Positions 1-13,806 of a DNA stretch of 64,000 bases are shown in pieces. This DNA comes from Bacillota bacterium (GTDB taxonomy: Bacteria; Bacillota; Clostridia; Peptostreptococcales; Anaerovoracaceae). Position numbers and translations under genes: made by a program. Every line of letters starts with the position of its first letter. Position 1 is the first letter of the stretch. The stretch is from assembly GCA_017436705.1 (NCBI GenBank), contig JAFSCP010000036.1, forward strand, positions 1-64,000, in the 5' to 3' direction. The notes under the pieces are model-generated. The model saw only the letters and a list, made by a program, of their open reading frames with translations. It was not told where the DNA came from and searched no databases.

Positions 1-573
1 GGGCGCAAGGCAAAAAATACATGGCTGGCCGGGAAGGTCAAGTGTGGCCGCTGTGGGTACGCCCTGATGAGTGTCGGCAATCCAACGGGGGCGCAGTATC
101 TGCGGTGCTCCAAACGGGCCGACAGCAAAAGCTGTGACGGGTGCGGTACGCTTCGTACTCCTGAATTTGAGCAGTTCGTATATGGCGAAATGCGGAAGAA
201 GATGGCCGAGTTCCAGACCCTCCGGGCCCGGAGCACAACGGTAAATCCCAAGCTGACCGCCCTGAATGTGGAGCTTGCACAGGTGGAGGCTGAAATTGAA
301 AAGCTGCTGAACACCCTGACCGGGGCAAACGCTGTTTTGCTCTCCTACGCCAACGGCAAGATCGAGGAGCTGGATACCCATCGCCAGACGCTGATCAAGA
401 CCATCGCGGAAATGTCTGCGGAAACAATGTCGCCGGGGCAGGCCGAGCTCATGTCGGCCCATCTGGACAACTGGCAGAACATTGACTTTGAGGACAGGCG
501 GCAAGTGGCCGATGGCCTGATCTCTCAGATCCGCGCCACCAGCGACCATGTGTCGATTGAGTGGAAAATCTGA
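1..573 (+). CDS. Large serine recombinase, C-terminal fragment (5' end outside window)
   Basis: The reading frame is open from base 1 to a TGA at 571-573 and gives about 190 residues. It begins with a zinc beta-ribbon of the type found in large serine recombinases: a CGRCGY motif, then paired cysteines in KSCDGCG. A Lys/Glu-rich helical, probably coiled-coil region follows (PKLTALNVELAQVEAEIEKL). The N-terminal resolvase catalytic domain would lie upstream of the window. Such enzymes integrate and excise phages and conjugative or mobilisable elements, and their gene usually lies at one end of the element. G+C content is clearly higher than in the genes from 642 onward, which supports transfer. 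The family call is firm; the type of element is unknown. Confidence 0.8.
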   Translation, partial: GRKAKNTWLAGKVKCGRCGYALMSVGNPTGAQYLRCSKRADSKSCDGCGTLRTPEFEQFVYGEMRKKMAEFQTLRARSTTVNPKLTALNVELAQVEAEIEKLLNTLTGANAVLLSYANGKIEELDTHRQTLIKTIAEMSAETMSPGQAELMSAHLDNWQNIDFEDRRQVADGLISQIRATSDHVSIEWKI

Positions 574-641
574 TCTTGAAATTCAACAAACACTTTGCAT
601 CGCCTGTGTGCCCTTGTCAAGCGATGTTTACGTTGAGATTA
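574..641. other. Probable edge of the integrated element
   Basis: Short non-coding stretch between the recombinase stop and the stop of the convergent permease gene. It holds an inverted repeat CATCGC (598-603) / GCGATG (621-626) without a T-run, so it is not a good terminator. Large serine recombinases recombine very short core sites lying near their own gene, so the attachment core is expected in or near here. The core cannot be fixed without the other end of the element. Confidence 0.35.
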
Positions 642-1451
642 TTAACATTCAGTTTCATTAGAAATCGTCTCCTTGCTTAATTTTTTTATCAGAAGCTCAA
701 GTATCATAAACACAAACAGTCCTGAAAAAATGAAGAATGATGAGTAGGCAGACATAAGTGGTCTGTCACCGCTCTGGATATAAGGGAAAAGTACCATTGC
801 GATTGTCTTCACGCGGCCGCCTCCGATAATCAGAGTAGTAAAATACTGGCTGTATGAAATGATGAAACCCATATTAAGGGACGCCAGAAATGCAGGTATC
901 ATATTGGGGAACGATGCCAGCCAGAAAGCTTTAAAAGAATTTGCACCAAGTATTATTGCCTGTTCTTCAAGCTGCGGTCCCAGAGCCCTTGTGGCATCGG
1001 TCATGATTGTGATGCAGTAAGGCAGGGATGATACCAGGTGAATAAGTATTACGCCCGCAACTGTATCCGTAAGATGGAGCCTGATAAACACTATCTGCAG
1101 GCCCATGGCCAGGACAGTCCCAGGGACAATGAGGGGCAACAGTGATGCGAATCTTATGAGTGACTTCCCGCGGAAAGTATAAAACTCGGAAGCTCTGGCG
1201 GTAAGTGTACCAATAACTGTGCCAAGGAGTGCCACGGTCATGGAAAGGCTTACGCTGCTGACAATAAGATGAAAGGCGTTGGCAGAGCCGAAAAGCAGTT
1301 CTCTGATGGTACGCATGGAGTAATCTTCAGGAAGAAGAAGGGGCCATGGCCAGCGTTGGACGAAAGACCAAAGCACCATAAGAAGCACCGGGACGATTAT
1401 TGCGATAAAGGTAATTGTGAGTACAGGGACATAAAAAGCTTTTTTATTCAT
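642..1451 (-). CDS. ABC transporter permease (second permease of a YnjBC-like system)
   Basis: A 269-residue integral membrane protein of the binding-protein-dependent permease superfamily, with about six hydrophobic segments. The cytoplasmic EAA-type loop that docks the ATPase is seen as EQAIILGANSFKAFWLASFPNMIPA. The start chosen is the ATG at 1449-1451 (MNKKAFYVP), preceded by a strong AGGAGG; a longer frame upstream lacks a ribosome site. It overlaps the end of the first permease by 8 bases, so translation is probably coupled. Together with the two preceding genes it forms a transporter like E. coli YnjB/YnjC, where the two permease halves are fused. No ATPase gene follows; a mobile-element edge does. 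Confidence 0.85.
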   Translation of the reverse strand: MNKKAFYVPVLTITFIAIIVPVLLMVLWSFVQRWPWPLLLPEDYSMRTIRELLFGSANAFHLIVSSVSLSMTVALLGTVIGTLTARASEFYTFRGKSLIRFASLLPLIVPGTVLAMGLQIVFIRLHLTDTVAGVILIHLVSSLPYCITIMTDATRALGPQLEEQAIILGANSFKAFWLASFPNMIPAFLASLNMGFIISYSQYFTTLIIGGGRVKTIAMVLFPYIQSGDRPLMSAYSSFFIFSGLFVFMILELLIKKLSKETISNETEC

Positions 1452-2319
1452 TTTTACCTCCTGTACGTTTAACAGCATATTGTATTGATATGAGATAAAG
1501 CACAGCAGCAAAAACAGCGAACATGAGAAGGACGCCGTTGGTCGCCATGGCGTATGGTCTGTTTAATAAATCCGGACTTGTAAATTCCAGAAAGGCAGTT
1601 ATCGGAAGAGCTTTAGGCAGGGTTGAACCAAGGAGCATAGGCAGCTCGTAGCCTGCAAAAGCGAATACGAAGATAATAAACGAAGCATTTGCAATTGCTG
1701 GCATTGAAAGTGGCAGTGTAACAGCAAAAAAGCTTCTGAGAGGTGATGCACCCAGATTCTGCGCAGCCTCTCCAAGAGATGAACTGATGCTTACCATGAG
1801 GGCATAAACAAAGAAGGCAACGAAAGGTGCTTCTTTCCACACATAAGCGACGATAACACCAAGGAAAGATTCAGTGTACAGCAGCGGAGTAAACTGGCTG
1901 TAATCAGCAATTAAGCCCAGTGCATAGGCAGCACGGGCAATGTGACCTGTCTGTGACAGGATATTGATAGCAAAAACTGCGACAACAGCATGTGGCACAA
2001 GGATGGGGAATCTGACAATGAAAGGAAATTTTCCTTTGCCTCCGGCTACGATTGCAGCACAGATAGCAACCCCAAGAACTGCTGAAATCACAGTTGAAAT
2101 TATTGATACACGCAAACTAACGGACAGCGAGCTTAAAAAGTCACTGTCCGTTAAAATTTCAGCATAATATTGAAGACTAAGTTCAGTGAGACCAAAGGCC
2201 GGAATCCAGCCAAGGCTCTGCATGATAACCACTGCGGCCGCCATGATAATAAGGGCTGTAACAAAAATGAAAGGGAGCAGCAGTATTAAAGGCATAAACT
2301 TGTTGTTTCTCATATGCAC
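1444..2319 (-). CDS. ABC transporter permease (first permease of a YnjBC-like system)
   Basis: A 291-residue membrane permease with an N-terminal hydrophobic helix and further segments typical of the MetI-like fold. The ATPase-contact loop reads EAAQNLGASPLRSFFAVTLP. The frame opens with a GTG at 2317-2319, with an ATG two codons later (2311-2313). Neither has a good ribosome site, so coupling to the solute-binding protein gene 10 bases upstream is likely. Its 3' end overlaps the second permease. By order (binding protein, permease, permease) it is the counterpart of the N-terminal half of E. coli YnjC. The substrate is unknown. Confidence 0.85.
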   Translation of the reverse strand: MHMRNNKFMPLILLLPFIFVTALIIMAAAVVIMQSLGWIPAFGLTELSLQYYAEILTDSDFLSSLSVSLRVSIISTVISAVLGVAICAAIVAGGKGKFPFIVRFPILVPHAVVAVFAINILSQTGHIARAAYALGLIADYSQFTPLLYTESFLGVIVAYVWKEAPFVAFFVYALMVSISSSLGEAAQNLGASPLRSFFAVTLPLSMPAIANASFIIFVFAFAGYELPMLLGSTLPKALPITAFLEFTSPDLLNRPYAMATNGVLLMFAVFAAVLYLISIQYAVKRTGGKNE

Positions 2320-2329
2320 ATTGCAGGAG

Positions 2330-3574
2330 TTATTTTCCTACAACCTCCTCTAACCAGATTTCTTCAATGATTGGTACAAGAGCAGCAGGCATTTCAGGGA
2401 GTCTGTGCGCAAGGAGTTCTTCCTGAGTAAGCACGCCCTGGCCGATTTCAACTGCGTTGAAAGAAGCAAGTTCTTCAGCAGATAACTTGGAATTGTCCAC
2501 AACAGGGAGTTCCTTAAGAGTCGCATACTGAGTGAGCTGGATTTCTGCAGAGAGGATAGCATCGATAACTACCATTGCACCGGCTTTGTTAGGTGAGTTG
2601 AAAGCGATTGCCATGTAGTTTGTGTTTCCGATTGTTCCGTTGTCAAATACGAAAGTCTTTACAGTATCAGCGTAACTTCCGTCAGCGATACCGGATGCTG
2701 CGGAGAAAGGACCGTAGCTCATGTGGAATAAAAGTTCGCCGTCAGCAAACATGGAATTTACAGTAGTTGAGGAATCAGGGAAAGTCTTTCCTTCGTTCCA
2801 GAGATATGGATTGAGTTCCTTTAAATATTCGATTGCAGGCTGGATTGCTGCTCTTACAGTTTCCTTGTCAGCTGCCATAGTCTGGAACTGTTCCCATCCG
2901 CAGAGTTCATAAACAAGGTTACGGACAAATGCACTGCCTGTAAAGTCAGGAAGTGCAGGGTAAGTTACCTTGCCTGGGTTTGCTTTACAGAATTCGAGAA
3001 ATTCCTGTGCGTTGGCAGGAACGTCAGTAACCTTTGCGCTGTCGTAAAGCATTATCATCTGGGCTCTTGCGTAAGGTGCTTCGTAGCCTTCAACAGGCAT
3101 ACAGAAGTCATTTAAAGTTTCAGGGTCATCAAGATCGATGTATTTTTCCATGTTAGGAAGCTGTGCTGTGAAAGGACCGTATAAAAGACCATTGGCCTTT
3201 GCGGAATAGAAGTTTTCACCATTGATCCATATCATATCAATGCTGCCTGATTCGCTGCCGGCCTGCTTTTCGCCGGAAAGCTTGGCAAGAATTTCATCAA
3301 TGTTCATGCCGACAACTTCTAAAGTGATGTCATAATTGTCTTTAACATAATCTGCAACTGTGGAGTTTAGCCACGAATTTCTGTTTTCATCTCCGCCCCA
3401 GCCGTAGAAAGTTACAGTTGTTCCTCTGGCAGCTTCAACGATTTCAGACCATTCAGCAGCTGAGAGGTCAAATTCGTTGTCAGCAGCAGGTTCGTCTGAA
3501 CCACATGCAGCCATTGTAAAAATCATTACAAAGATCATGAGAAGTGTGAAAACAATTTTTAAAGTCTTTTTCAT
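2330..3574 (-). CDS. YnjB-like ABC transporter substrate-binding lipoprotein
   Basis: A 414-residue extracellular solute-binding protein with a lipoprotein signal: basic start MKKTLK, hydrophobic stretch, then lipobox MAAC. After processing it would be anchored to the outer face of the membrane. The mature part carries stretches I recognise from E. coli YnjB (COG4134): TVTFYGWGGDENRNSW, DMIWINGENFYSAKANGLL and YGPFTAQLPNME. The ligand of YnjB proteins is not established. The start has an excellent site (GGAGGAGAA) and overlaps the stop of the nucleoside hydrolase gene as ATGA. It feeds the two permeases downstream; the matching ATPase is not in the window. Confidence 0.88.
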   Translation of the reverse strand: MKKTLKIVFTLLMIFVMIFTMAACGSDEPAADNEFDLSAAEWSEIVEAARGTTVTFYGWGGDENRNSWLNSTVADYVKDNYDITLEVVGMNIDEILAKLSGEKQAGSESGSIDMIWINGENFYSAKANGLLYGPFTAQLPNMEKYIDLDDPETLNDFCMPVEGYEAPYARAQMIMLYDSAKVTDVPANAQEFLEFCKANPGKVTYPALPDFTGSAFVRNLVYELCGWEQFQTMAADKETVRAAIQPAIEYLKELNPYLWNEGKTFPDSSTTVNSMFADGELLFHMSYGPFSAASGIADGSYADTVKTFVFDNGTIGNTNYMAIAFNSPNKAGAMVVIDAILSAEIQLTQYATLKELPVVDNSKLSAEELASFNAVEIGQGVLTQEELLAHRLPEMPAALVPIIEEIWLEEVVGK

Positions 3575-4458
3575 TTTTTCTCCTCCAGAATTTTAGCGTT
3601 AAAATATATCTGATACACATGTTCTGTGTAAGCAGCAGGGTCAGTTATTTCGGGCAGGAAACATTTTATCTCCGGACCGCCGCCGTTGAGGCTGCCGTTT
3701 TTCATTGATTCATGAGTAGGTGTGATTGTTGTTTCCTTTATATTGAAGTATTCCGGATGTACAAGCTGGACAGCAGCCATCACATCCCAGTTTATGAAAC
3801 CTTCAAGGTTCCAGTATTTTCTGTTATAGTCGTACCAGTACTGGATTTCTTCTCTGAGAAAATCTGACATTGCACATGGATTGGCTTCAGTAACAGCATG
3901 GAACTGAGCTTCAGAAAAGTATGACTTAAGGCAGTTGCCTGCTGATGCGATATAAATATCGTGAGCCTGAGAGAAAATATCAACCGTAGAAGCATAGTCT
4001 ATGGAAAAATTCAATTCACCCATGGGTTTACCGCCAACAAATAGTGGTTCAGTCAGTCCGCCCATGAAAGAAAATGCTTTTACATTCTGATAAAAATCAG
4101 GGTTAATGTCACCGGCACCGGCCAGATTGGTTGTGGAGCCAAGGCAGAGAACACGGAGAGAGCCTTTATATTTTTCAGACATATCTGCAAGAAAATGTGC
4201 AGCCGGAGATATTCTTCCGGCCGGAGAAGGTGAACCTTCCAGAACAGGAATTTCTTCACAGCGCCATTTTTTTAGCAGTCTCTTTACATTGTTGTAAACA
4301 TTATCCTGTGTACTGTTTCCATATGAACATGTTATGCCTTCAATCTTCACTTCTGAGCAACCCAGCATATACAGAATTGCAGTGCCGTCATCCACATCAC
4401 AGCCTGGAATTCCAAGAGTGCAGTCACAATCAATTATGAGCGGAATTTTACTTTCCAT
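3571..4458 (-). CDS. Inosine/uridine-preferring nucleoside hydrolase family protein
   Basis: A 295-residue protein of the ribonucleoside hydrolase fold, which cleaves the N-glycosidic bond of nucleosides using a calcium ion held by Asp residues. The N-terminal metal motif is a variant, PLIIDCDCTLGIPGCDVDDG, with the usual DxD...DD cluster spread by an insertion rich in Cys and Gly. Downstream GELNFSIDYAS matches the substrate-binding E-x-N-x3-D segment. The start is the ATG at 4456-4458 (MESKIP); the ribosome site is weak (GGACGG), and a TTG at 4489-4491 would add 11 residues. It is first in the operon with the YnjB-like transporter. The true substrate may be a nucleoside-like or glycosylated compound. 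Confidence 0.82.
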   Translation of the reverse strand: MESKIPLIIDCDCTLGIPGCDVDDGTAILYMLGCSEVKIEGITCSYGNSTQDNVYNNVKRLLKKWRCEEIPVLEGSPSPAGRISPAAHFLADMSEKYKGSLRVLCLGSTTNLAGAGDINPDFYQNVKAFSFMGGLTEPLFVGGKPMGELNFSIDYASTVDIFSQAHDIYIASAGNCLKSYFSEAQFHAVTEANPCAMSDFLREEIQYWYDYNRKYWNLEGFINWDVMAAVQLVHPEYFNIKETTITPTHESMKNGSLNGGGPEIKCFLPEITDPAAYTEHVYQIYFNAKILEEKK

Positions 4459-4495
4459 TATATGTACCGTCCGTAAATTTTTTTGTCGCAATAAT

Positions 4496-4525
4496 AATCT
4501 AACAGTTTCTGCTATAATTTGTCAA
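4496..4525 (-). promoter_or_regulatory. Sigma-A promoter for the nucleoside hydrolase-transporter operon
   Basis: Reading the minus strand, a perfect -35 TTGACA (4525-4520) is followed after 18 bases by TAGATT (4501-4496). It points into the operon starting at 4458. Confidence 0.5.
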
Positions 4526-4526
4526 C

Positions 4527-4556
4527 TTAAAAAAGCAATGGTACTATTGATATAAT
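4527..4556 (+). promoter_or_regulatory. Upstream candidate promoter for the rhodanese gene
   Basis: Extended -10 TGaTATAAT (4548-4556) with a weak -35 TTAAAA (4527-4532). It overlaps the -35 region of the divergent operon promoter, so the two directions could compete. Confidence 0.4.
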
Positions 4557-4591
4557 CTATATATAAACGGACCAGTATCTAAAAGTGCAAT

Positions 4592-4620
4592 TTGTCATTT
4601 TTGCCTCTCCATTATAAAAT
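4592..4620 (+). promoter_or_regulatory. Main sigma-A promoter for the rhodanese gene
   Basis: TTGTCA (4592-4597), 17-base spacer, TAAAAT (4615-4620). The transcript would start near 4627, leaving a leader of about 33 bases that contains the AGGAGA ribosome site. Confidence 0.6.
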
Positions 4621-4659
4621 GTTATTTGCTTTAGCAAACAAATTTAAGGAGAGAGACAA

Positions 4660-5550
4660 ATGAAAAAATTATTAACACTTTTATTAGTATTAGCAATGAT
4701 GTTCTCATTTGCAGCCTGCGGTCAGGACGAACCACAGCAGCCTGCAGATGATCAGCAGCAGGTAGAAGAAAACAACGTTGAAATGCAGAAGATGACAGCA
4801 GATCAGCTCTTAGAAGCTATGAAAGCTGGCGAAGACCTTCTTATCCTTGACGTAAGAAAAGCTGCAGACCACGAAGCTTCCCACATCCCTGGCGCTTATG
4901 GCGTAGACATGGATGCTGCTAAGGAAGGCGATTTCGAAGCTGGTGTAACAGCTATGAAGGCTGCTCTTACAGAAATCACAGGTTCTGAAAACGGTAACGG
5001 AGCTAAGATGGTATTAGTATGCTACTCCGGTAACAGATATGCTCAGGCTTCCACAAACGTTCTTGCTGAAATCGGTGCAACTATGGAAAACGTATTTACA
5101 CTTGAAGGCGGTTTCAATAACTGGTCCGAAGTAAATGCTGAAGTTGTTGTAGGCGGTGAAGAAGTAACAGACGTAGAAATGAAGTACATGACTGCTGACG
5201 AAGTTGCTGCAGTTCTTGAAGATGAAGCTTACTTAATCCTTGACGTAAGAAAAGCTGCAGACCACGAAGCAGCTCACATCCCTGGCGCATTCGGTATCGA
5301 CATGGATGCTGCTAAGGAAGGCGATACAGCTGCAGGCGTTGAAGCTTTAAAGGCTGGTTTATTAGAAGCAACTGGCGACGTTAAGGGCGGCGACAAGAAG
5401 ATGGTATTAGTATGCTACAGCGGTGCAAGATATGCTCAGGCTACTACTAACTGCTTAAACGCTATCGGCGCTGACATGGAAAACGTATTCACACTTGAAG
5501 GCGGTTTCAATGGCTGGTCCGAAACAAAGGCTGATTTAATCGAAAAATAA
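4660..5550 (+). CDS. Tandem rhodanese-domain lipoprotein (sulfurtransferase)
   Basis: A 296-residue lipoprotein: signal MKKLLTLLLVLAMMFSFAAC with lipobox FAAC, a Gln-rich linker, then two rhodanese domains (about residues 43-165 and 174-296). Both keep the active loop C-Y-S-G-x-R, with catalytic Cys121 and Cys252 exactly 131 residues apart. Rhodaneses carry sulfane sulfur, or selenium, as a Cys persulfide. Membrane anchoring on the outside is unusual and recalls E. coli YnjE, which also has an export signal. Codon use is strongly biased, suggesting high expression. It has its own promoter and terminator and heads the plus-strand cluster, opposite the YnjB-like transporter. Confidence 0.9.
   Translation: MKKLLTLLLVLAMMFSFAACGQDEPQQPADDQQQVEENNVEMQKMTADQLLEAMKAGEDLLILDVRKAADHEASHIPGAYGVDMDAAKEGDFEAGVTAMKAALTEITGSENGNGAKMVLVCYSGNRYAQASTNVLAEIGATMENVFTLEGGFNNWSEVNAEVVVGGEEVTDVEMKYMTADEVAAVLEDEAYLILDVRKAADHEAAHIPGAFGIDMDAAKEGDTAAGVEALKAGLLEATGDVKGGDKKMVLVCYSGARYAQATTNCLNAIGADMENVFTLEGGFNGWSETKADLIEK
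4843..5270 (+). repeat. Direct repeats from internal duplication of the rhodanese gene
   Basis: A perfect 35-base direct repeat lies at 4843-4877 and 5236-5270. A 27-base perfect match follows at 4906-4932 and 5299-5325. All matches share the same 393-base (131-codon) offset, so the two domain-coding halves are a duplication with no net insertion or deletion over that span. Confidence 0.85.
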
Positions 5551-5569
5551 TCAGAGATTTATTTAAAAG

Positions 5570-5596
5570 CGGGCATCTTCTGATGTCCGTTTTTTT
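5570..5596 (+). terminator. Rho-independent terminator after the rhodanese gene
   Basis: Stem CGGGCATC (5570-5577) / GATGTCCG (5582-5589), loop TTCT, then seven Ts. It probably lets only part of the transcription continue into the fusion gene 24 bases further on. Confidence 0.85.
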
Positions 5597-5619
5597 GACA
5601 TTAAAGGAATAATTAATTT

Positions 5620-7875
5620 ATGAAAAATATAAAAGCTGTTTCTAAAATTGTTGCATTTGCAGTGCTGGTCATGGCAGTTGTTTTGCTCAGCAATCATTTC
5701 GGCTGGGCTGAAATGATTACTCAGGGAGGGGATTTTACTTTTATCCGTGAGATGACAGCCGGCAATGAAACTGCTGGGATTGCAATATATATCGTACTTA
5801 CAATAATCGGATGCGTGGTGCTTGCTTTGCCGGGAATTACCTTTGCTGTTGCAGCAGGTATGCTTTTCGGGCCCGTGACCGGTATTTTTGCATGTCTTGC
5901 TGCCACAACACTGGGAGCGATGATTGCTTTTATTGTGGGAAGATTTTTCCTTAAAGATGGTGTCAAGCCACTGCTGGAAAAAAATAAAGTACTCAAGAAA
6001 CTGCTTTTTTCAGATAATAAAAAGAATGACCTGATACTGCTGATGGTCACAAGACTTGTGCCTTTGTTCCCTTACAATCTTCAGAATTTTGCCTATGGTA
6101 TTACTGACATCAGCTTTGCGAAGTACACATTGTATACTTTTGTATTCATGTTTCCGGGAGTTTCATTCTATACTATCGGTGCAGCAGGACTGACTGCAGA
6201 CGGTAACAACTGGGTGTATTTCCTGGTTGCAGGAGTGATTGCGCTGGCTGTTACAGAAATGGGACTTTATATTAAGAAAAAATATCTTAGTGAAGATCTG
6301 ACCAGTGAAAATGTAATAATTCTGTTTACCAGAGTACCGCTGGCCGGAAAGACCAAGACAAGACTGATGCCTTTCCTCAGCGGTGAGGAATGTGCTGCTG
6401 TTCACAGTAAGATAATCAGACGTGTCTATGAAACATGCTGCAGCGCTGATGCAGATTTAATTGTTTTCTATACACCGGAAGATGAAGAAGGTAAGCTCAG
6501 AAAACTTCTCGGAGACAAAAATACTGAATTCGTTGCCCAGAAAGGTGAAAATCTGGGCGAACGTATGGGCAGGGCATTTGAATATGTTTTTGATAAACAA
6601 TACAAAAAAGTGGTTCTCATCGGCACAGATATTCCGGAGATTTCCCGGGAAATACTTGATGAAGCTTTTGCAGCCCTTGGAATAAGTCAGTGTGTTATAA
6701 ATCCTACAGCAGACGGAGGTTTCTATCTGCTTGGAATGAAGGATGAATATACAGACGGATGGCAGATTGACCAGTATGGAAATTCCAGCGTGTTTGAAGC
6801 AACGGTATCCAGACTTGAAGAAAGGGGTATTTCAACTTCTGTCGGAACCAAGCTGCAGGACATCGATACCAGGGAAGACCTGCTGGATTATTACAGGAGA
6901 ACCGGTGGAAAAACAGCAGATGCAGATGACTGCATTCATTGTGGGAAATGTACGAAAAGCTGCGGTTTCCTTGAAAAATACGGACTTGATCTGGCGGGGC
7001 TGGCTGCAAGACCTGATCTGGCATACTCCTGTTTCCTGTGCGGCAGGTGTACGGAAGTCTGCCCGAAAGATATTGACGGAGCTGCAATTTCGCTTAACAT
7101 GAGAGCCAGACAGACTGAGCTGGAAAAGAAAGAGCCAGGTAAAGGGTATGACGGAATTCTTTTTGAGAAAAACCCTTATAAATTTGCCGGATATAAAAAG
7201 GGCAAGGGGGAAACTGTGATTTTTCCTGGCTGCAACTTCCCGGCATTTTTCCCTGAAACAATGGATAAGATTGAGGAAATTGCTGAGAAAAATGGTTTCG
7301 GCGTGATTTATGACTGCTGCCAGAAGCCTGTCAGAGAACTGGGGATGCTTGAGGCAGCAGACAACAATCTGCAGAGACTCAGAAAATATATTAAAGAAAA
7401 CGACGTAAAAGAAATCGTTACAATGTGTCCTAACTGCTATCACACTCTGAAAAGTTATGTTGATATTCCGGTACGCAGTATATACAGCAAGCTTCTGGAA
7501 ATCGGTGAGGGGCAGACAATAAAATGTGATAAAATGCCGGTGTATCTTCCATGCCCTGAGCGGTCTGATAACGGCTTTATGGCTGATATTGAAAAGTTTG
7601 TGGACGGGCATATTGAATTTGCATATAAAGAGGTGGAATGCTGCGGACTTGGCGGCTGTGCAGGTATAAAAGAACCTGAAATCGCAGAGAAGATGGTAGG
7701 CAAAGCCATAAGCAAGGAACAGCCGCTTTACACTTACTGTGCATCATGTATCAGTAATTTCAGAAGAAAAGGCAAGGAAGACTCATACCATATTCTTCCG
7801 ATGATTCTGGGGGTAGATGAAAAAGTTCCACTGGGAATAAAACCGACAATCAATCGCTTCAAGAGGAAATCTTAA
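5620..7875 (+). CDS. Three-part fusion: TVP38/VTT membrane domain + DUF2064 glycosyltransferase + ferredoxin/CCG iron-sulfur module
   Basis: A 751-residue protein. Residues 1 to about 225 form a TVP38/TMEM64 (VTT) membrane domain with the typical RLVPLFPYNLQNFAYGIT. Residues about 229-430 match the TIGR04282/DUF2064 glycosyltransferase-like family: ILFTRVPLAGKTKTRL, GENLGERM, VLIGTDIPE, PTADGGFYLLG. Residues about 436-485 hold two 4Fe-4S clusters' worth of Cys (438, 441, 444, 448 and 471, 474, 477, 481). The rest resembles CCG-domain proteins (HdrB/GlpC type), with Cys566-567, CPNC and Cys674-675-Gly. One chain thus joins membrane, sugar-transfer and redox functions. Stop and next start overlap as TAATG. 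Domain calls are good; the reaction is unknown. Confidence 0.85.
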   Translation: MKNIKAVSKIVAFAVLVMAVVLLSNHFGWAEMITQGGDFTFIREMTAGNETAGIAIYIVLTIIGCVVLALPGITFAVAAGMLFGPVTGIFACLAATTLGAMIAFIVGRFFLKDGVKPLLEKNKVLKKLLFSDNKKNDLILLMVTRLVPLFPYNLQNFAYGITDISFAKYTLYTFVFMFPGVSFYTIGAAGLTADGNNWVYFLVAGVIALAVTEMGLYIKKKYLSEDLTSENVIILFTRVPLAGKTKTRLMPFLSGEECAAVHSKIIRRVYETCCSADADLIVFYTPEDEEGKLRKLLGDKNTEFVAQKGENLGERMGRAFEYVFDKQYKKVVLIGTDIPEISREILDEAFAALGISQCVINPTADGGFYLLGMKDEYTDGWQIDQYGNSSVFEATVSRLEERGISTSVGTKLQDIDTREDLLDYYRRTGGKTADADDCIHCGKCTKSCGFLEKYGLDLAGLAARPDLAYSCFLCGRCTEVCPKDIDGAAISLNMRARQTELEKKEPGKGYDGILFEKNPYKFAGYKKGKGETVIFPGCNFPAFFPETMDKIEEIAEKNGFGVIYDCCQKPVRELGMLEAADNNLQRLRKYIKENDVKEIVTMCPNCYHTLKSYVDIPVRSIYSKLLEIGEGQTIKCDKMPVYLPCPERSDNGFMADIEKFVDGHIEFAYKEVECCGLGGCAGIKEPEIAEKMVGKAISKEQPLYTYCASCISNFRRKGKEDSYHILPMILGVDEKVPLGIKPTINRFKRKS

Positions 7876-8549
7876 TGAAATTATCAATTATCATACCAAT
7901 ATACAACGAAGAATCCACAATAGGCAAACTGATTCCTCAGCTGGATAATGTTAAAGAACAGACAGAGATTATTTTTGTGGATGGAGGAAGCAGCGACAGG
8001 ACGCTGGAAATGATACCGGAAGACTATACCGTTATCAGAAGCGGGAAAGGCCGCGCCCGCCAGATGAACACGGGCGCGGAAAACAGCACAGGGGACGTGC
8101 TGTTTTTCCTCCACTGTGACAGCCTGCTGCCGGAGGACTTTCCCGCTCAGATCGCAGAAGTAATGGAAGTCAGTGACATCGGCTGTTTCGGCATGCGTTT
8201 TGACAAGCCGGACCTGTTTCTGCTCAGCTGCCAGAGGGACTCCCATAAGAGAATTCTTAAAAAGAACATAGCCTTCGGGGATCAGGGAATTTTCCTGAAG
8301 AAAGAATTATTTTTCAGACTGGGAGGATTTCCTGAAATTCCCATTATGGAAGACTATGATTTTTCCAAAAAGGTCGGAGCGGCTGGTTGCAGGTACGTAA
8401 CAACAAGGGACAGGATAGTTACTTCTGCCCGCAGATTCAGAGAAGGTGGCAGCCTCCGTACCATGTACAGAATGGTCTGGCTCCGCAGGAAATATGATAA
8501 GGACATGGACATAAACGAGGTTGCCCGTATTTACAGAGATATACGCTAG
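7875..8549 (+). CDS. TIGR04283-type family 2 glycosyltransferase
   Basis: A 224-residue GT-A fold enzyme. Motifs run in order: SIIIPIYNEESTI (nucleotide-sugar binding), VDGGSSDRT, GRARQMNTGA, the DxD-like HCDS, FGDQGIFL and IMEDYDFS. This set matches the small glycosyltransferases annotated as TIGR04283 (arsenosugar-cluster type), which often occur with the TIGR04282/DUF2064 family present in the preceding fusion. The start overlaps the preceding stop (TAATG), so the two are translationally coupled. No membrane segment is seen, so it is probably cytosolic, perhaps held at the membrane by its partner. Donor and acceptor are unknown. Confidence 0.85.
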   Translation: MKLSIIIPIYNEESTIGKLIPQLDNVKEQTEIIFVDGGSSDRTLEMIPEDYTVIRSGKGRARQMNTGAENSTGDVLFFLHCDSLLPEDFPAQIAEVMEVSDIGCFGMRFDKPDLFLLSCQRDSHKRILKKNIAFGDQGIFLKKELFFRLGGFPEIPIMEDYDFSKKVGAAGCRYVTTRDRIVTSARRFREGGSLRTMYRMVWLRRKYDKDMDINEVARIYRDIR

Positions 8550-8564
8550 GAAAAGGTATTTGAA

Positions 8565-9575
8565 ATGGAAATTCTTAAAGGTCTTGATGAATATGTAAAA
8601 ACTGAACATTTCCGCAGTGCCATGGGAATTCCGGCAGGCAGTGAAATTATCCTGAAACCGCTGGCAATGGGAGAGTACAATGTAAACTATACTTTTGCTC
8701 ATCCTGAAGACGGCAGTGTACGGGTTCTCAGAGCCAATACGGGAAGTCAGATGCACCTCGATGATCAGATTGGCTACGAGTATGGTGCACTTAAGCTTCT
8801 GGAAGACTGCGGAAGAACACCAAAAGCTTATTTTGTGGACGGAAGCAGAGAAAAAACCGACTACGGAATAATGGTTATGGAGTTTCTGCCGGGAAAAGCC
8901 CTGGACTACAATACTGAACTGAATCTGGCAGCACCGATTCTGGCAGATATCCATGCGGTTGAACTCAAGCCGGACTGTGGCCTTATAATGCCGGCTGAAG
9001 CAGGTGAAGCCATTCTGGATGAATGTGACCAGATGATTGAAAAGTTTTATCAGTCACCTCTGGGACAGGCGCACACAAAGAAAAAAATAGAAGAAATGAT
9101 AAAAAAAGGCCGCCGCATTCTTGCGGATACTAATCCTTATACAGGACGGCGCTGCTGCATCAATACAGAACTTAATTCAGGCAATTTCCTTATCAATGGT
9201 ACTGTTCAGAAGAACTATCTTGTGGACTGGGAAAAGCCTCTGTACGCTGATCCGGCACAGGATCTGGGACATTTCCTGACGCCTACAACTACTTTCTGGA
9301 AGACCGATGTGATTCTTACCAGAGCCCAGCGCAGGGAGTTTGTCCGGGAATATATCCGGGCTGTTGACGGGCGGTATGATACAGCAGGTATGGAAGAAAG
9401 GGTAAATACATTTATCAGGCTTAACTGTCTCCGTGGAATCACATGGTGTGCAATGGCATGGGTAGAATACAGCGAGCCTGACAGGGCAATAAAAAATGAT
9501 TTTACTTTCAGGAAAATCATGGCATATATTCAGGATGACTTTCTTGATAATATCGACAGGAATTTTCTTGGATAA
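8565..9575 (+). CDS. Aminoglycoside-phosphotransferase/choline-kinase-fold protein with altered catalytic loop
   Basis: A 336-residue protein of the APH kinase fold. A nucleotide-loop-like segment (MGEYNVNYTF) is followed by VMEFLPGK in the hinge. The catalytic loop reads NTELNSGN instead of the usual HGDLHPGN, so His becomes Asn200 and the catalytic Asp becomes Glu202, while Asn207 is kept. The metal-binding Asp is present (VDWEKPLYADPAQDLGHF, Asp221). It lies 15 bases after the glycosyltransferase, clearly in the same operon. It could be a working kinase for a sugar or alcohol with a Glu base, or a pseudokinase. Confidence 0.75.
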   Translation: MEILKGLDEYVKTEHFRSAMGIPAGSEIILKPLAMGEYNVNYTFAHPEDGSVRVLRANTGSQMHLDDQIGYEYGALKLLEDCGRTPKAYFVDGSREKTDYGIMVMEFLPGKALDYNTELNLAAPILADIHAVELKPDCGLIMPAEAGEAILDECDQMIEKFYQSPLGQAHTKKKIEEMIKKGRRILADTNPYTGRRCCINTELNSGNFLINGTVQKNYLVDWEKPLYADPAQDLGHFLTPTTTFWKTDVILTRAQRREFVREYIRAVDGRYDTAGMEERVNTFIRLNCLRGITWCAMAWVEYSEPDRAIKNDFTFRKIMAYIQDDFLDNIDRNFLG

Positions 9576-9620
9576 TTGATAAACTATATAGAACGGAAAT
9601 TGTTCATTGAAAAGAAAAAT

Positions 9621-9650
9621 TGTACTTTCTCTCTTCTAAAACCTATAATT
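9621..9650 (+). promoter_or_regulatory. Internal promoter for the TVP38-yedF-DUF3343 genes
   Basis: TTGTAC (9621-9626), 18-base spacer, perfect TATAAT (9645-9650), just upstream of the ribosome site AGGAGA at about 9659. It would allow the last three genes to be expressed apart from the glycosyltransferases. Confidence 0.55.
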
Positions 9651-9672
9651 ATACTTACAGGAGATTTTTTAC

Positions 9673-10374
9673 ATGAATTTAAAAGACAAATTATCAAAAA
9701 TTATTTTACTGACAATCGTGGCGGTTTGTCTTGGTGCATATTTTTTAGTAGAGCCGTTCAGGGCATGGATTAATGAAATCGTTGTATTATTCAGCACTGG
9801 CGGTGTGGAAGGTGTGGCTGCATTTATCCGTTCATACGGTATTTATGCTGTTGCGGTTTCTTTCTTTCTCATGGTGTTTACTGCAATTGCGGCTCCACTT
9901 CCGGCGTTCCTGATCACATTCTCCAATGCAGCTATTTTCGGCTGGTGGCAGGGTGCAATTCTTTCATGGTCAAGTGCTATGGTGGGTGCAGTTGTATGTT
10001 TCTATATTGCGAGAATTGCAGGCAGAGATGTGGTCGAAAAGCTAACTTCAAAGTTTGCAATGGAGAGTATTGACGAATATTTTGAAAGATATGGCAGACA
10101 TACTATTCTCATCTGCAGACTTCTTCCGTTTGTATCATTTGACTTTGTAAGTTATGCGGCGGGGCTCACTGCAATGGGATTTGTTCCGTTTTTTATTGCG
10201 ACAGGTATCGGTCAGCTTCCGGCTACAATTGTTTATTCCTATGTAGGTGGCATGCTCACAGGCGGCGTGAAGATTGCAGTTACAGCAATCCTCATTATTT
10301 CCGCTTTATTCATACTTGTATCTTTAGCAAAGAAAATATATAATGATAAACATAAAACTCAGGAGGTTAAATAA
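9673..10374 (+). CDS. TVP38/TMEM64 (VTT-domain) membrane protein
   Basis: A 233-residue membrane protein related to YdjX/YdjZ and the DedA superfamily. Hydrophobic helices flank the conserved core: PLPAFLITFSNAAIFGWWQGA, then RLLPFVSFDFVSYAAGLT, which matches the family re-entrant-loop motif. It is the second VTT domain in this cluster, the first being the N-terminal part of the fusion; E. coli also has two such proteins (YdjX, YdjZ) beside ynjBCD. The start follows an AGGAGA site, and the stop overlaps the yedF start (TAATG). Transport or lipid-related roles are possible. Confidence 0.85.
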   Translation: MNLKDKLSKIILLTIVAVCLGAYFLVEPFRAWINEIVVLFSTGGVEGVAAFIRSYGIYAVAVSFFLMVFTAIAAPLPAFLITFSNAAIFGWWQGAILSWSSAMVGAVVCFYIARIAGRDVVEKLTSKFAMESIDEYFERYGRHTILICRLLPFVSFDFVSYAAGLTAMGFVPFFIATGIGQLPATIVYSYVGGMLTGGVKIAVTAILIISALFILVSLAKKIYNDKHKTQEVK

Positions 10375-10985
10375 TGGCTAATATTGTTGTAAATGCAGTA
10401 GGACAGAACTGTCCTATTCCAGTTGTAATGACTACTAAAGAACTCAACGCAGTGACTGAAGCAGGCACTGTTGAAACTCATGTTGATAATGAAGTTGCAG
10501 TTCAGAATCTTCTTCGTCTTGCTTCCAGCAAAGGCCTTGAAGCTAAGAGCGAAAAGATTGAAGAAAAGCACTTTGTTGTAACTATCACAGTTACAGGTCC
10601 TCTTGCTGAAGCAGCTTGCGAAGAATGTGAATGTGCAGGCGATGCAAGAGAAAATACAGTAGTTGTTGTAAGCTCTGACAGAATGGGCGAAGGCAATGAT
10701 GAGCTTGGTAAAGTTCTTATCAAAGGTTTCATCTACGCTGTTTCCCAGCTTGAAAAGCTCCCTAAGACAGTTATTTTCTACAACGGAGGTGCAACTCTTC
10801 CTGTGGAAGGTTCTGCTTCTCTTGAAGACCTTAAGAACCTTGAAGCTCAGGGTGTTGAAATCCTCACTTGTGGTACGTGTCTTGATTACTACAACCTTAA
10901 GGAAAAGCTTGCAGTAGGCTCTGTTACAAACATGTACACAATCGTTGAAACTATTGCAAATGCAACAAAGGTAATTAAGCCATAA
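10374..10985 (+). CDS. yedF: YedF-type sulfurtransferase-like selenium metabolism protein
   Basis: A 203-residue two-domain protein. Residues 1-75 are a TusA/SirA-like domain with the C-P-x-P motif (Cys13-Pro-Ile-Pro). Residues about 95-203 are a DsrE-like domain starting VVVVSSDRMGEGNDELG and carrying CGTCLDYY near the C-terminus. This is the layout of the TIGR03527 selenium-metabolism YedF family, generally found in genomes that use selenium. By analogy with TusA, Cys13 may carry sulfur or selenium. The ribosome site AGGAGG sits at 10361-10366, and the start overlaps the previous stop. The biochemical role of this family is unproven. Confidence 0.9.
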   Translation: MANIVVNAVGQNCPIPVVMTTKELNAVTEAGTVETHVDNEVAVQNLLRLASSKGLEAKSEKIEEKHFVVTITVTGPLAEAACEECECAGDARENTVVVVSSDRMGEGNDELGKVLIKGFIYAVSQLEKLPKTVIFYNGGATLPVEGSASLEDLKNLEAQGVEILTCGTCLDYYNLKEKLAVGSVTNMYTIVETIANATKVIKP

Positions 10986-10994
10986 CAAGATAAT

Positions 10995-11231
10995 ATGCTG
11001 GAAAAAACATTTAAAAAGGTATTTACCTTCAACTCCACCACAGATGCCATTGCTTTTGAAAGGGCTTGTAAAAACAATGACATTCCTGGCAGACTGATTC
11101 CTGTTCCACGTGCGATTTCTGCCGGATGCGGAATCTGCTGGTCAGTTCCTGCAGAAGATGGAGAAAAAGTTGAAGAATTTATGAAAGCATCAGAGCTCCG
11201 CTGCTCCGGAATCTACGATATGCTGCTTTAA
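10995..11231 (+). CDS. DUF3343 putative Se/S carrier-like protein
   Basis: A 78-residue protein of the DUF3343 family. It has the family core R-A-I-S-A-G-C-G-I-C-W (Cys45, Cys48), preceded by a FNSTTDAIAFERACK helix. Homologues are commonly encoded next to yedF in Clostridia and are annotated as possible sulfur or selenium carriers; that function is not demonstrated. It is the last gene of the cluster, 9 bases after yedF, and is followed by a strong terminator. The small size with a conserved Cys fits a carrier passing a chalcogen between partners. Confidence 0.85.
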   Translation: MLEKTFKKVFTFNSTTDAIAFERACKNNDIPGRLIPVPRAISAGCGICWSVPAEDGEKVEEFMKASELRCSGIYDMLL

Positions 11232-11256
11232 TATTTTAACAATCACAAAAAACAGG

Positions 11257-11298
11257 CAAGGCCTTCAGTGAGAATTACACTGAAAGCCTTGTTTTTTT
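11257..11298 (+). terminator. Strong bidirectional terminator closing the cluster
   Basis: Stem 11257-11270 pairs with 11278-11291 (CAAGGC-C-TTCAGTG against CACTGAA-A-GCCTTG) and is followed by seven Ts. On the minus strand the A-rich flank (11246-11252) gives a T-run, so it can also end the convergent cysteine-rich gene. Confidence 0.9.
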
Positions 11299-11314
11299 CT
11301 GATTTTATGCGTGT

Positions 11315-12394
11315 CTATCTCCGTGGCTGTGGTCTTGGCGGTCTTTGTGGTCTGCCTGGACCGGGACTGCATGGGTCGCAGGAGTCACATGGATCACAAG
11401 GGTCGCATGGCTCTGGTCTGCAAGGATTGCAGTGGTCCGGCCTGCATACATCGTCACATCCATCATCCCTGTCACCTGCAATCACGCCGCAGTTTTCCAA
11501 TGTGTCAGACGGTTTGATCTGATTAGGGAAAAGTGGCGGGAAGGTTGTGCATACTGCGTTCTGCTGGGCAGAAACCTGGACGAAACCTGTTGATAATACG
11601 CATATCTGCACAGGTACTACGATTTTCTTTTCGCAGGTAACGCAGATTGCAATGATGAGGTTGCCTGTTATGCTGCCGTCGGGGCCTACGCACAGGTCGC
11701 GGCCGTAGTTGTTTGTCGCAAGACGGGCTTCGCAGGCAGAGTTACAGAACTCAGTGAAACGGGGCAGGAATGCTGTATCGATAGCCGATGGCATACAGAT
11801 TTCAAAGAAGTTTGTCAGCACCAGCGGCTGGCATGCATCAGCCACATTTACATTGGTCCAGATTGTGAATACGCTTTCATTGTTGCAGCTGTCGCAGAGA
11901 AGAAGATCCAGTTCGATTATAACATTACCTGTGATTGATATGTTCTGTGTACCAAAAATCGGTGTGCCCATGCACTGGTCATCACAGGATGAAGTGTCTG
12001 CATAGAGCAGTTTTTCTGAAAAGTTTCCGTCAGCACCGACAACTTTAAGTTCTTCGCCCGCGCCGTTTTTAAGGAATGTGGCACCGGAAATAGTGGTGTT
12101 CACATCCAGAGTAAGATTTGCAGGATCATCTACATTGTCCGGATTGAAACTGCGTTTACATCTTATATCTATTACTCTTTTAACTCTGTGTCCGTGAGGA
12201 ATACAAGGGTAAAAGCTCTGGTTCTGAACTGTTTTCATGCCCTGAAGGTTAAAAAGTACGGCATCGTAGACTTTCTGTACATAAATCGGCTCAGTCACCA
12301 CGCTGGATAAATCTCCGTTGAATTCACAAAGGACATTGGAGTTGCAGCAATTCTGCCAGAGGTCCGGTGATACTCTTCCACCAAAGCAGCTCAT
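11315..12394 (-). CDS. Cysteine-rich hypothetical protein with C-terminal Cys-Asp-Pro repeats
   Basis: A 359-residue protein I cannot assign to a family. It has no signal peptide or membrane helix. The N-terminal 300 residues are beta-rich in look, with scattered Cys, including pairs (NCC, CDDQC, CDSC, CVTC). The C-terminus is a low-complexity tail of C-x-P-C-D units (CRPEPCDPCDPCDSCDPC) ending in a basic Pro/Arg stretch. The gene has a perfect AGGAGG site. Such compositions occur in spore-coat or exosporium proteins, and the upstream -10 resembles that of late sporulation sigma factors, but this is only a suggestion. It is a single-gene unit, convergent with the cluster at 4660-11231. Confidence 0.7.
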   Translation of the reverse strand: MSCFGGRVSPDLWQNCCNSNVLCEFNGDLSSVVTEPIYVQKVYDAVLFNLQGMKTVQNQSFYPCIPHGHRVKRVIDIRCKRSFNPDNVDDPANLTLDVNTTISGATFLKNGAGEELKVVGADGNFSEKLLYADTSSCDDQCMGTPIFGTQNISITGNVIIELDLLLCDSCNNESVFTIWTNVNVADACQPLVLTNFFEICMPSAIDTAFLPRFTEFCNSACEARLATNNYGRDLCVGPDGSITGNLIIAICVTCEKKIVVPVQICVLSTGFVQVSAQQNAVCTTFPPLFPNQIKPSDTLENCGVIAGDRDDGCDDVCRPDHCNPCRPEPCDPCDPCDSCDPCSPGPGRPQRPPRPQPRR

Positions 12395-12431
12395 AAAATT
12401 ACCTCCTTAAATAGTCCAATATCTTTCTCTG

Positions 12432-12460
12432 TTACTATATGAATTTTTGAGAAAATGTGT
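12432..12460 (-). promoter_or_regulatory. Possible sporulation-type (sigma-K/E-like) promoter for the cysteine-rich gene
   Basis: Minus strand: CATATAGTAA (12441-12432) fits the CATAnnnTA -10 of sigma-K. It has AC dinucleotides 15 and 17 bases upstream where the -35 AC is expected. No well-spaced sigma-A promoter was seen. Confidence 0.3.
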
Positions 12461-12466
12461 TACAAT
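12458..12466 (+). promoter_or_regulatory. Extended -10 promoter for the M16 peptidase gene
   Basis: TGtTACAAT at 12458-12466, without a convincing -35. It lies about 40 bases before the start at 12510 and partly interleaves with the divergent promoter. Confidence 0.4.
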
Positions 12467-12509
12467 ATATATTCAGTTTAAAGAAAATCAACCGGAGGGT
12501 AAATATAAT

Positions 12510-13763
12510 ATGGGTAATATCAGTATAAGAAAATTAGACTGCGGCGTGCGTGTAATCATGGAAAAAATCGACCATGTAAAGTCTGCTGCTTTTGGTGTCT
12601 GGGTAAAGGCAGGGGCAATTTACGAAACATCGGCCAATGCAGGTGTGTCACACTTTATTGAACACATGATGTTCAAGGGTACTGAAACTAGAAATGCACG
12701 TCAGATTGCAGAAGATATAGACAAAATCGGCGGCCAGATAAATGCTTTTACAGGCAAGGAAGCGACATGTTACTATGTCAAGACCATCGGTACCAATCTT
12801 GAAAAGGGTGCGGAAGTTATTCTCGACATGCTCAACAATTCAGTTTTCGACAAGCATGAAATGACCAAGGAACGGAAGGTTATCTGCGAAGAAATCAAGA
12901 TGATTGAAGACCAGCCTGATGATCTGGCACACGATACAGTGACTGAGCTTCTTTTCAAGGGAAATCCTCTTGGCAAGAGCATCATCGGTACACCGACTTC
13001 ACTTCGCGGAATAAGCCGCAATGTTATGGTTGAATACAAGGAAAGGGAATACACCCGTGACAGTGTGGTAGTATCCGTGGCAGGCAATTTCGATGAGGAT
13101 GATTTCTGTGCTTACCTTGAAGATAAATTTACAGGTCTTGGTGCGTCAAAAACTGTTGAAAAAGCCGAACTTGTACCGTACAGACCATCTTTCAGAACCA
13201 TTGTGAAAGACATCCAGCAGTCACATATCTGCCTGGCAGCAAAAGGCCTTGCACTGGATGATGAGCGTTACTATTCAATGAGCCTGCTCAATAACATCAT
13301 GGGCGGCAGCATGAGCTCAAGACTTTTCCAAAACATCAGAGAAGAAAAGGGTCTGGCATACAGCGTTTTCTCCATGGCAAGTTCTTTCTCCAATGACGGA
13401 TATTTCAACATTTATGCAGGTGTGGGACACGATAAAATCAAGGATGCTATGGGAGGAATTCTTGAGGAACTTGATATTCTGGACCGTGAAGGAGTTACTG
13501 AAGAAGAGCTGAGCATGGCCAAGGAACAGATGAAGGCCAACTACATATTCGGTCAGGAAAATGTGGCAAGCCGCATGTTTGCCAATGGTAAGAATCTGGT
13601 ACTTCTGGACCGTATCTTTACTGCTGAAGAAGTTATTGAGGGTATTGACAGTGTAACAATGGAGGACATTGACAATATCAAGAAGCTTATCTGCGATCCG
13701 GCTCTTTACACAGGCGTTGCAGTAACTGATAAGAGGGTTAACCTTAAGAAATTCTGGAAATAG
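12510..13763 (+). CDS. M16 family zinc metallopeptidase (processing-peptidase-like)
   Basis: A 417-residue protein of the pitrilysin/mitochondrial-processing-peptidase family (B. subtilis MlpA/YmxG type). The inverted zinc motif HxxEH is present as His48-Phe-Ile-Glu51-His52, and the distal Glu lies in the helix after it. The C-terminal half has the family signature RLFQNIREEKGLAYSVFS. The start is the ATG at 12510 with GGAGGG 10 bases upstream; the frame extends further up without a ribosome site. It is followed after 43 bases by dut. Processing of small peptides or exported proteins is likely; the substrate is not known. Confidence 0.9.
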   Translation: MGNISIRKLDCGVRVIMEKIDHVKSAAFGVWVKAGAIYETSANAGVSHFIEHMMFKGTETRNARQIAEDIDKIGGQINAFTGKEATCYYVKTIGTNLEKGAEVILDMLNNSVFDKHEMTKERKVICEEIKMIEDQPDDLAHDTVTELLFKGNPLGKSIIGTPTSLRGISRNVMVEYKEREYTRDSVVVSVAGNFDEDDFCAYLEDKFTGLGASKTVEKAELVPYRPSFRTIVKDIQQSHICLAAKGLALDDERYYSMSLLNNIMGGSMSSRLFQNIREEKGLAYSVFSMASSFSNDGYFNIYAGVGHDKIKDAMGGILEELDILDREGVTEEELSMAKEQMKANYIFGQENVASRMFANGKNLVLLDRIFTAEEVIEGIDSVTMEDIDNIKKLICDPALYTGVAVTDKRVNLKKFWK

Positions 13764-13768
13764 GCAGG

Positions 13769-13792
13769 AGATGTCCTGTAAACGGGACATCT
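13769..13792 (+). other. Hairpin between the M16 peptidase gene and dut
   Basis: A ten-pair stem (13769-13778 with 13783-13792, one G-T pair) closes a TAAA tetraloop. It ends just before the dut ribosome site GAGGAG (13795-13800). There is no T-run, so it is not a terminator; it may act as an mRNA processing or stability element. Confidence 0.55.
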
Positions 13793-13806
13793 GTGAGGAG
13801 TATAAT

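Follow-up and report, generated by a model that had tools for sequence, protein, structure and literature searches.

The block at positions 642-11231 of the window (the whole 64,000-nucleotide stretch of contig JAFSCP010000036.1 analysed here, from a Bacillota genome, G000, that is 92.5% complete) is a real gene cluster, conserved in many gut and environmental Clostridia. It consists of two divergent gene groups. The minus-strand group encodes a nucleoside-hydrolase family protein, a YnjB-type binding protein and two permeases, and the plus-strand group encodes a double-rhodanese lipoprotein, a 751-amino-acid fusion protein, a TIGR04283 glycosyltransferase, an APH-fold (kinase-fold) protein, a second TVP38 protein, YedF and DUF3343. 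The cluster is best described as a TIGR04282/04283 activation module in combination with an importer of the ynj type. We tentatively propose that it is a functional module that salvages a sugar unit, attaches it to an acceptor and is linked to a redox arm for sulfur or selenium, a reading that we consider quite possible, if short of probable.

Recurrence of the cluster across genomes

An alignment of the kinase-fold protein was scanned against one genome per species (84,980 species) and gave 342 relatives, of which the best 80 were kept. Neighbourhoods were counted in the 70 of these 80 loci with 11 kb or more of sequence, and the counts are lower bounds since contigs end. Near the kinase-fold gene we observed TIGR04283 and a rhodanese in 62/70 loci each, TVP38 in 61, TIGR04282 in 60, an iron-sulfur (FeS) protein in 46, YnjB in 33, a nucleoside hydrolase in 26 and ArsS in 11. 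The hydrolase tracks the importer, YnjB being present in 24 of the 26 hydrolase-bearing loci (p=2e-9). As YedF was near the cluster in only 3/70 loci and DUF3343 in only 1/70, these two are occasional partners and not core members. A contig scan with the single fusion protein as query gave no matches, while the kinase-fold alignment did match; the kinase-fold protein had no match among plasmid records.

Six relatives, which belong to three families within the same order (L019, L020, L022, L024, L027 and L021, the last with a broken importer), carry the importer genes (binding protein, permeases and ATPase) next to those for TIGR04283, TIGR04282 and the kinase-fold protein. In L178 eleven genes form a directon, all on the same strand and with no gap above 111 bp: TIGR04283, TIGR04282, the kinase-fold gene, two TVP38 genes, the FeS gene, the importer genes (binding protein, two permeases and ATPase) and the hydrolase gene. 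Because this locus and others hold both groups as a single directon, the two divergent halves belong together. The two groups are co-present yet unlinked in G204 and G091. A preliminary description of this DNA, made from the sequence alone, had proposed that these families form one functional unit; their co-occurrence beyond this genome was looked for and found, far beyond chance, and the halves are not independent.

We also used a sample of the phylum, 398 genomes drawn evenly. TIGR04282 was over cut-off in 27/398 and YnjB in 30/398 of these; they occurred together in 7 genomes against 2.0 expected (p=0.002), with the genes within ~5 kb in 6 of the 7. Of 119 relatives, 12 have TIGR04282 and 24 have a YnjB match over cut-off.

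Two observations concern the history and surroundings of the cluster. The binding protein of the window (2330-3574) is 75-79% identical to Oscillospiraceae copies (L226, L229 and L239) whose kinase-fold protein is <50% identical, which suggests that the importer half may have been transferred separately. In many clusters from Lachnospiraceae, a membrane protein of ~148 amino acids is encoded next to the genes for rhodanese and TVP38/FeS proteins (L165:13913-14359, L166:655-1101, L183:6438-6881 and L174:12128-12574); a search with the L165 copy gave no Pfam or NCBIfam match.

Gene content of the block

The genes of the block and the domains of the fusion protein are as follows.

642..1511, minus strand: ATP-binding cassette (ABC) permease, YnjC-type, second half (PF00528, 43.4 bits)
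1444..2319, minus strand: ABC permease, YnjC-type, first half (PF00528, 26.0 bits; gathering 26.4)
2330..3574, minus strand: YnjB-type solute-binding lipoprotein (NF008633, 445 bits; cut-off 203)
3571..4491, minus strand: nucleoside-hydrolase family protein (PF01156, 108 bits)
4660..5550, plus strand: secreted lipoprotein with two rhodanese domains (PF00581 twice, 116 bits; lipobox FAAC)
5620..7875, plus strand: 751-amino-acid fusion of TVP38/VTT, TIGR04282 and ferredoxin/CCG FeS parts (PF09335, TIGR04282, NF045663 partial)
~5620-6309, plus strand: TVP38/VTT membrane domain of the fusion (PF09335)
~6310-6894, plus strand: TIGR04282 nucleotidyl/glycosyltransferase domain of the fusion (181.7 bits; cut-off 134)
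~6895-7875, plus strand: ferredoxin and CCG FeS domains of the fusion (partial match to NF045663, 'diclust_near_Sec')
7875..8549, plus strand: TIGR04283 family-2 glycosyltransferase (235.3 bits; cut-off 182)
8565..9575, plus strand: APH-fold (kinase-fold) protein with NTExNSxN replacing HxDxxxxN (PF01636, 48.5 bits)
9673..10374, plus strand: second TVP38/VTT membrane protein, YdjZ-like (PF09335, 94.9 bits)
10374..10985, plus strand: YedF, with TusA and DsrE domains (TIGR03527, 220.5 bits, cut-off 110; PF01206, PF02635)
10995..11231, plus strand: DUF3343, a selenium/sulfur (Se/S) carrier-like protein (PF11823 Se_S_carrier, 88.6 bits; cut-off 25)

Profile matches recovered every element that the preliminary description had listed for the block. 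Its inventory had overlooked the nucleoside-hydrolase gene, which shares 4 bp with the gene for the binding protein. The TVP38, TIGR04282 and FeS parts that it had listed are all present, the first TVP38 being joined to the other two in one protein. The same three-part fusion occurs in L181; TIGR04282-FeS fusions are found in L164-L166, and TIGR04282-TIGR04283 fusions in many loci. The permease at 1444..2319 is 49-50% identical to its orthologues in L024 and L027. The kinase-fold gene is identical in L163, a metagenome-assembled genome from goat caecum.

The remaining window holds mostly housekeeping genes. A search of window positions 1-14000 against Rfam found no family above threshold, and hence no known riboswitch. 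On the minus strand at 11315-12394 lies a gene for a protein with a Cys/Pro-rich tail (CDPCDPCDSCDPC...), apparently without relation to the cluster.

Link to selenium use

SelD was present in 260/398 (65%) and YedF in 214/398 (54%) genomes of the phylum sample. All 27 TIGR04282 genomes had both SelD (27/27, p=9e-6) and YedF (27/27, p=3e-8), the enrichment of YedF persisted within the SelD-positive genomes (p=0.001), and SelD was found in 28/30 YnjB genomes (p=5e-4); all these p-values ignore shared ancestry. The genome of the window itself encodes SelD (379.8 bits, with an in-frame UGA, on contig C14). Thus the correlation with selD agrees with the association with selenium use that had been suggested for the block.

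In eight loci (L022, L024, L114, L127, L274, L275, L277 and L278) YedE halves of the YedE/FdhT type adjoin the importer, and a TusA-like gene between the halves and a LysR regulator are each present in most of them. The LysR regulator of L274 scored 241.6 bits against the cut-off of 250 for NF040786, the selenium-associated LysR family. The arrangement of YedE as two half-size genes flanking a TusA-like gene is seen at L022:14919-16396 and is similar in L024, L114 and L127; with the TusA-like gene lying between the halves, a split YedE read as an in-frame UGA selenoprotein was ruled out.

Exchange of partner genes

We compared 26 YnjB neighbourhoods, leaving out four of the 30 YnjB genomes. 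A CDP-alcohol phosphatidyltransferase without kinase-fold or hydrolase genes was found in 16/26, kinase-fold and/or hydrolase genes in 9/26, and both kinds in only 1/26 (L114; p=3e-6). The closest family of this phosphatidyltransferase is archaetidylinositol-phosphate synthase, and YnjB clusters of the phosphatidyltransferase type also occur in Fusobacteria, Metabacillus, Acetoanaerobium, Aliiroseovarius and E. coli.

Partners alternate on the TIGR04282 side as well: among the 27 TIGR04282 genomes of the sample, ArsS was present in 9, YnjB in 7, both in 0 and neither in 11. Several of these eleven carry a BioB-like or other radical S-adenosylmethionine (SAM) protein beside TIGR04282/04283, and some carry a flippase-like LPG_synthase_TM protein there. 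From the common pattern we infer one activation module with exchangeable precursor suppliers. Radical-SAM-type TIGR04282/04283 clusters without ArsS or importer were seen at L123, L130, L132 and L134; these are possibly further precursor chemistries.

Active sites and predicted structures

The hydrolase keeps the Ca/ribose residues D23, D34, D35, N59, E159, N161 and D236, which we take to correspond to D10, D14, D15, N39, E166, N168 and D242 in the numbering of the IU-nucleoside hydrolases. At the position of the active-site His of that group (H241), Trp (W235) was found in 13/13 aligned sequences. Because the Ca/ribose residues are kept, with Trp replacing His241, a ribosyl substrate is likely, judging from the residues. 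TIGR04282 retains the KTRL, GxDxP and DxD motifs, and TIGR04283 the family-2 glycosyltransferase motifs NE, HxDS, GDQG and MED.

The model of the kinase-fold protein (pLDDT 94) matched APH, choline and homoserine kinases with Z about 22. The match to 3dxp had Z 22.8 (root-mean-square deviation 3.1, 296 aligned), and NahK gave Z 19.8. The Mg-binding Asn and Asp are kept. The catalytic HxDxxxxN is replaced by N200-T-E202-x-N204-S-x-N207, in which N200, E202, N204 and N207 are invariant. Since NxE replaces HxD, the activity of the protein is uncertain: a glutamate may serve as the base of a kinase reaction, or the protein may do something else. NTExNSxN stands for HxDxxxxN in all aligned members of this APH-fold subfamily, to which the 342 relatives belong.

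For the binding protein, the AlphaFold2 model (pLDDT 90.2) gave nearly tied fold matches to the trehalose/maltose-binding protein (Z 27.9), UgpB (26.7) and the shorter 4r6y (26.4). A sequence search of the PDB found no close relative of either the binding protein or the kinase-fold protein.

Proposed function and alternatives

We infer the order of steps, the ligand, the element and the product as follows. The YnjB-type ABC importer would take in a riboside or related glycoside, from which the nucleoside-hydrolase protein would free a ribose-type sugar. The APH-fold protein would phosphorylate this sugar, probably at C1, TIGR04282 would make a nucleoside-diphosphate (NDP) sugar from the sugar-phosphate, and TIGR04283 would pass the sugar on, the acceptor probably being a lipid or glycerol. 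Movement of the lipid, or of a small molecule associated with it, would fall to the TVP38 proteins, and a redox arm made of the rhodanese, the FeS/CCG protein and, here, also YedF and the Se/S carrier would act on a sulfur or selenium group. The precursor would, in related clusters, come from a radical-SAM enzyme, ArsS or others, which the importer and hydrolase would here replace.

The preliminary description had the transporter taking up a sulfur, selenium or arsenic species. Import of a riboside or glycoside is favoured instead by the presence of a nucleoside hydrolase in the transporter operon and by the modelled fold of the binding protein, which resembles that of sugar- and phosphodiester-binding proteins. 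In an Acinetobacter arsenosugar cluster, MtnP, a phosphorylase, stands in place of hydrolase and kinase, and would yield the sugar-1-phosphate in one step. A hydrolase and a kinase are the usual replacement of a phosphorylase, as in methylthioadenosine salvage, where MtnN and MtnK substitute for MtnP. Because of this correspondence, the path from hydrolase to glycosyltransferase would be coherent. The acceptor is our guess from TVP38 and the alternative phosphatidyltransferase. A sulfur or selenium step is implied by the rhodanese and the FeS/CCG protein, together with an NF045663-type flavoprotein that many relatives carry. A more specific version is, taken whole, unlikely: a selenium-dependent salvage, widespread in gut Clostridia, that would turn modified nucleosides or glycosides into an S- or Se-bearing glycolipid via the hydrolase and the NxE kinase-fold enzyme, replacing precursor synthesis by radical-SAM enzymes.

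Several observations weigh against the sugar-salvage proposal. The kinase-fold gene is without YnjB within 10 kb in 37/70 loci, so the importer is not obligatory or is located elsewhere, and YnjB with the nucleoside hydrolase occurs without nearby glycosyltransferases at L068, L140 and L142. Peptoclostridium acidaminophilum has hydrolase and importer only. The N and E that replace the catalytic H and D of kinases are invariant in 41 sequences, and phosphorylation by the kinase-fold protein may be wrong. The fold of the binding protein is, as modelled, of a sugar/phosphodiester type that does not fix the ligand. Moreover, ArsS and a YnjB locus occur unlinked in the same genome in G096, G106 and G113, and at one locus in L213 of the 70-locus set. 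A strict exclusion of ArsS and importer at the genome level is weakened by those three genomes; the two do exclude each other in the 398-genome sample and, with a single exception, at individual loci.

Three other explanations were weighed. In a chalcogen module, an imported sulfur or selenium species would pass through rhodanese, YedF and DUF3343 onto an NDP-sugar via TIGR04283, giving a thio- or selenosugar. The presence of SelD and YedF in 27/27 TIGR04282 genomes, the YedE/FdhT halves, TusA-like protein and selenium-type LysR beside the importer (L022, L024, L127 and L274), and the frequency of rhodaneses (62/70) fit this explanation. However, the rhodanese is a secreted lipoprotein whereas the TIGR04283 glycosyltransferase lacks a signal peptide, few loci have YedF or DUF3343 nearby, the nucleoside hydrolase is left without a role, and the binding protein is modelled with a fold like that of sugar- and phosphodiester-binding proteins; we regard the chalcogen module as doubtful. 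We consider it slightly less likely still that the cluster serves lipid head groups. YnjBCD would then import an alcohol or glycerophosphodiester for the CDP-alcohol phosphatidyltransferase or for a LicA-LicC-like route of kinase-fold protein, TIGR04282 and TIGR04283, with the hydrolase acting on a side substrate. The either/or of phosphatidyltransferase (16) and APH/hydrolase genes (9), with both in 1 of the 26 neighbourhoods, speaks for this, as do the resemblance of the phosphatidyltransferase to archaetidylinositol-phosphate synthase, the UgpB-like fold among the top matches of the binding protein and the choline-kinase-like fold of the APH protein, but the linkage of hydrolase and YnjB (24/26) and the linkage to selenium are left unexplained.

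Salvage of arsenosugars, in which arsenic-containing ribosides would be imported and enzymes of ArsS clusters would rebuild arsenosugar glycosides or lipids, is the least probable. TIGR04282 and TIGR04283 do score above the NCBI 'arsenosugar' cut-offs, TVP38, FeS and rhodanese neighbours are common to ArsS clusters, and ArsS and the importer alternate. However, this genome does not encode an arsenic route by ArsS: its best match to ArsS (TIGR04167) scored 33.7 bits against a cut-off of 300, in an assembly that is 92.5% complete. In addition, the BioB-like radical-SAM clusters with neither ArsS nor importer (L123, L130 and L132) suggest non-arsenic chemistry, and the broad distribution in gut Clostridia fits a rare arsenic substrate poorly.

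Interruption of the transporter ATPase gene

No intact gene for the transporter ATPase was found within the 64-kb window. Two partial features lie between the permease genes and the contig end, the contig starting at window base 1.

67..573, plus strand: C-terminal fragment of a serine-type recombinase at the contig end (PF13408, 20 bits, below cut-off)
624..658, minus strand: start of the transporter ATPase gene, first ~11 codons (ATG at complement 656-658; cut by insertion)

The recombinase fragment stops just past the permease, and its region has a GC content of 0.57 vs 0.43. An intact ATPase of 270 amino acids, with Walker A, LSGGQ and Walker B, is encoded on another contig of the same assembly (C43:5952-6764). 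C43:6730-6910 is 97.2% identical to the window over 181 bp (5 differences), and the shared sequence begins at window position 624. A recombinase-bearing element is, judging from this alignment, inserted in the ATPase gene near codon 11, and the window and C43 probably represent two strain variants, of which only the former carries this element.

Relation to known systems

The E. coli ydjXYZ-ynjABCDEF cluster, which is activated by FNR (PMC3688515), likewise has a YnjB-C-D importer, two TVP38 proteins and a rhodanese. Unlike the present block, it holds the CDP-alcohol phosphatidyltransferase YnjF, YnjA and YdjY, and it is without TIGR04282/04283, the kinase-fold protein and the nucleoside hydrolase. 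The importer set of the E. coli type is complete here (YnjB-family protein, permeases and, on C43, the ATPase), and a YnjF-type phosphatidyltransferase was absent from the identified genes of the block and from C43, the whole genome not having been searched for it. The kinship to the E. coli cluster that the preliminary description had pointed out is thus supported, as is its link with selenium.

The arsenosugar clusters with ArsS, for example that of an Acinetobacter portensis plasmid (L064), share TIGR04282, TIGR04283, TVP38 and a redox protein with the block, while the radical-SAM enzyme ArsS and MtnP replace the importer, nucleoside hydrolase and kinase-fold protein. AmgK/MurU and NahK-type pairs combine an anomeric kinase with a nucleotidyltransferase; an APH fold adjoins a nucleotidyltransferase-fold protein there as here, but those kinases have the catalytic HxD and the present protein NxE. 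From the selenium-associated set YedE/YedF/DUF3343/LysR (Lin et al. 2015, PMC5322559), YedF and DUF3343 are in the window, and YedE and LysR lie beside the cluster in relatives. The parts of that paper drawn on here list one glycosyltransferase with YedE from STRING and do not describe the genes for the YnjB importer, TVP38, TIGR04282/04283, kinase-fold protein and hydrolase as a unit. The open-access PubMed Central literature on TIGR04282/04283, ynjBCD and ydjX/ynjE yielded no functional description of the cluster, which is apparently undescribed in the literature searched and made of known families.

Several families in the cluster are without proven function: YnjB-type importers, TIGR04282/04283 outside arsenic, bacterial TVP38, YedF and DUF3343. 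The cluster provides a testable context for them and connects them with the use of selenium in common lineages of the gut, for example Coprococcus comes, Dorea, Enterocloster, Flavonifractor and Mogibacterium. For the uncharacterised ynj operon of E. coli, the alternation with the phosphatidyltransferase also points to a likely partner step, in which the imported compound would be placed on a lipid.

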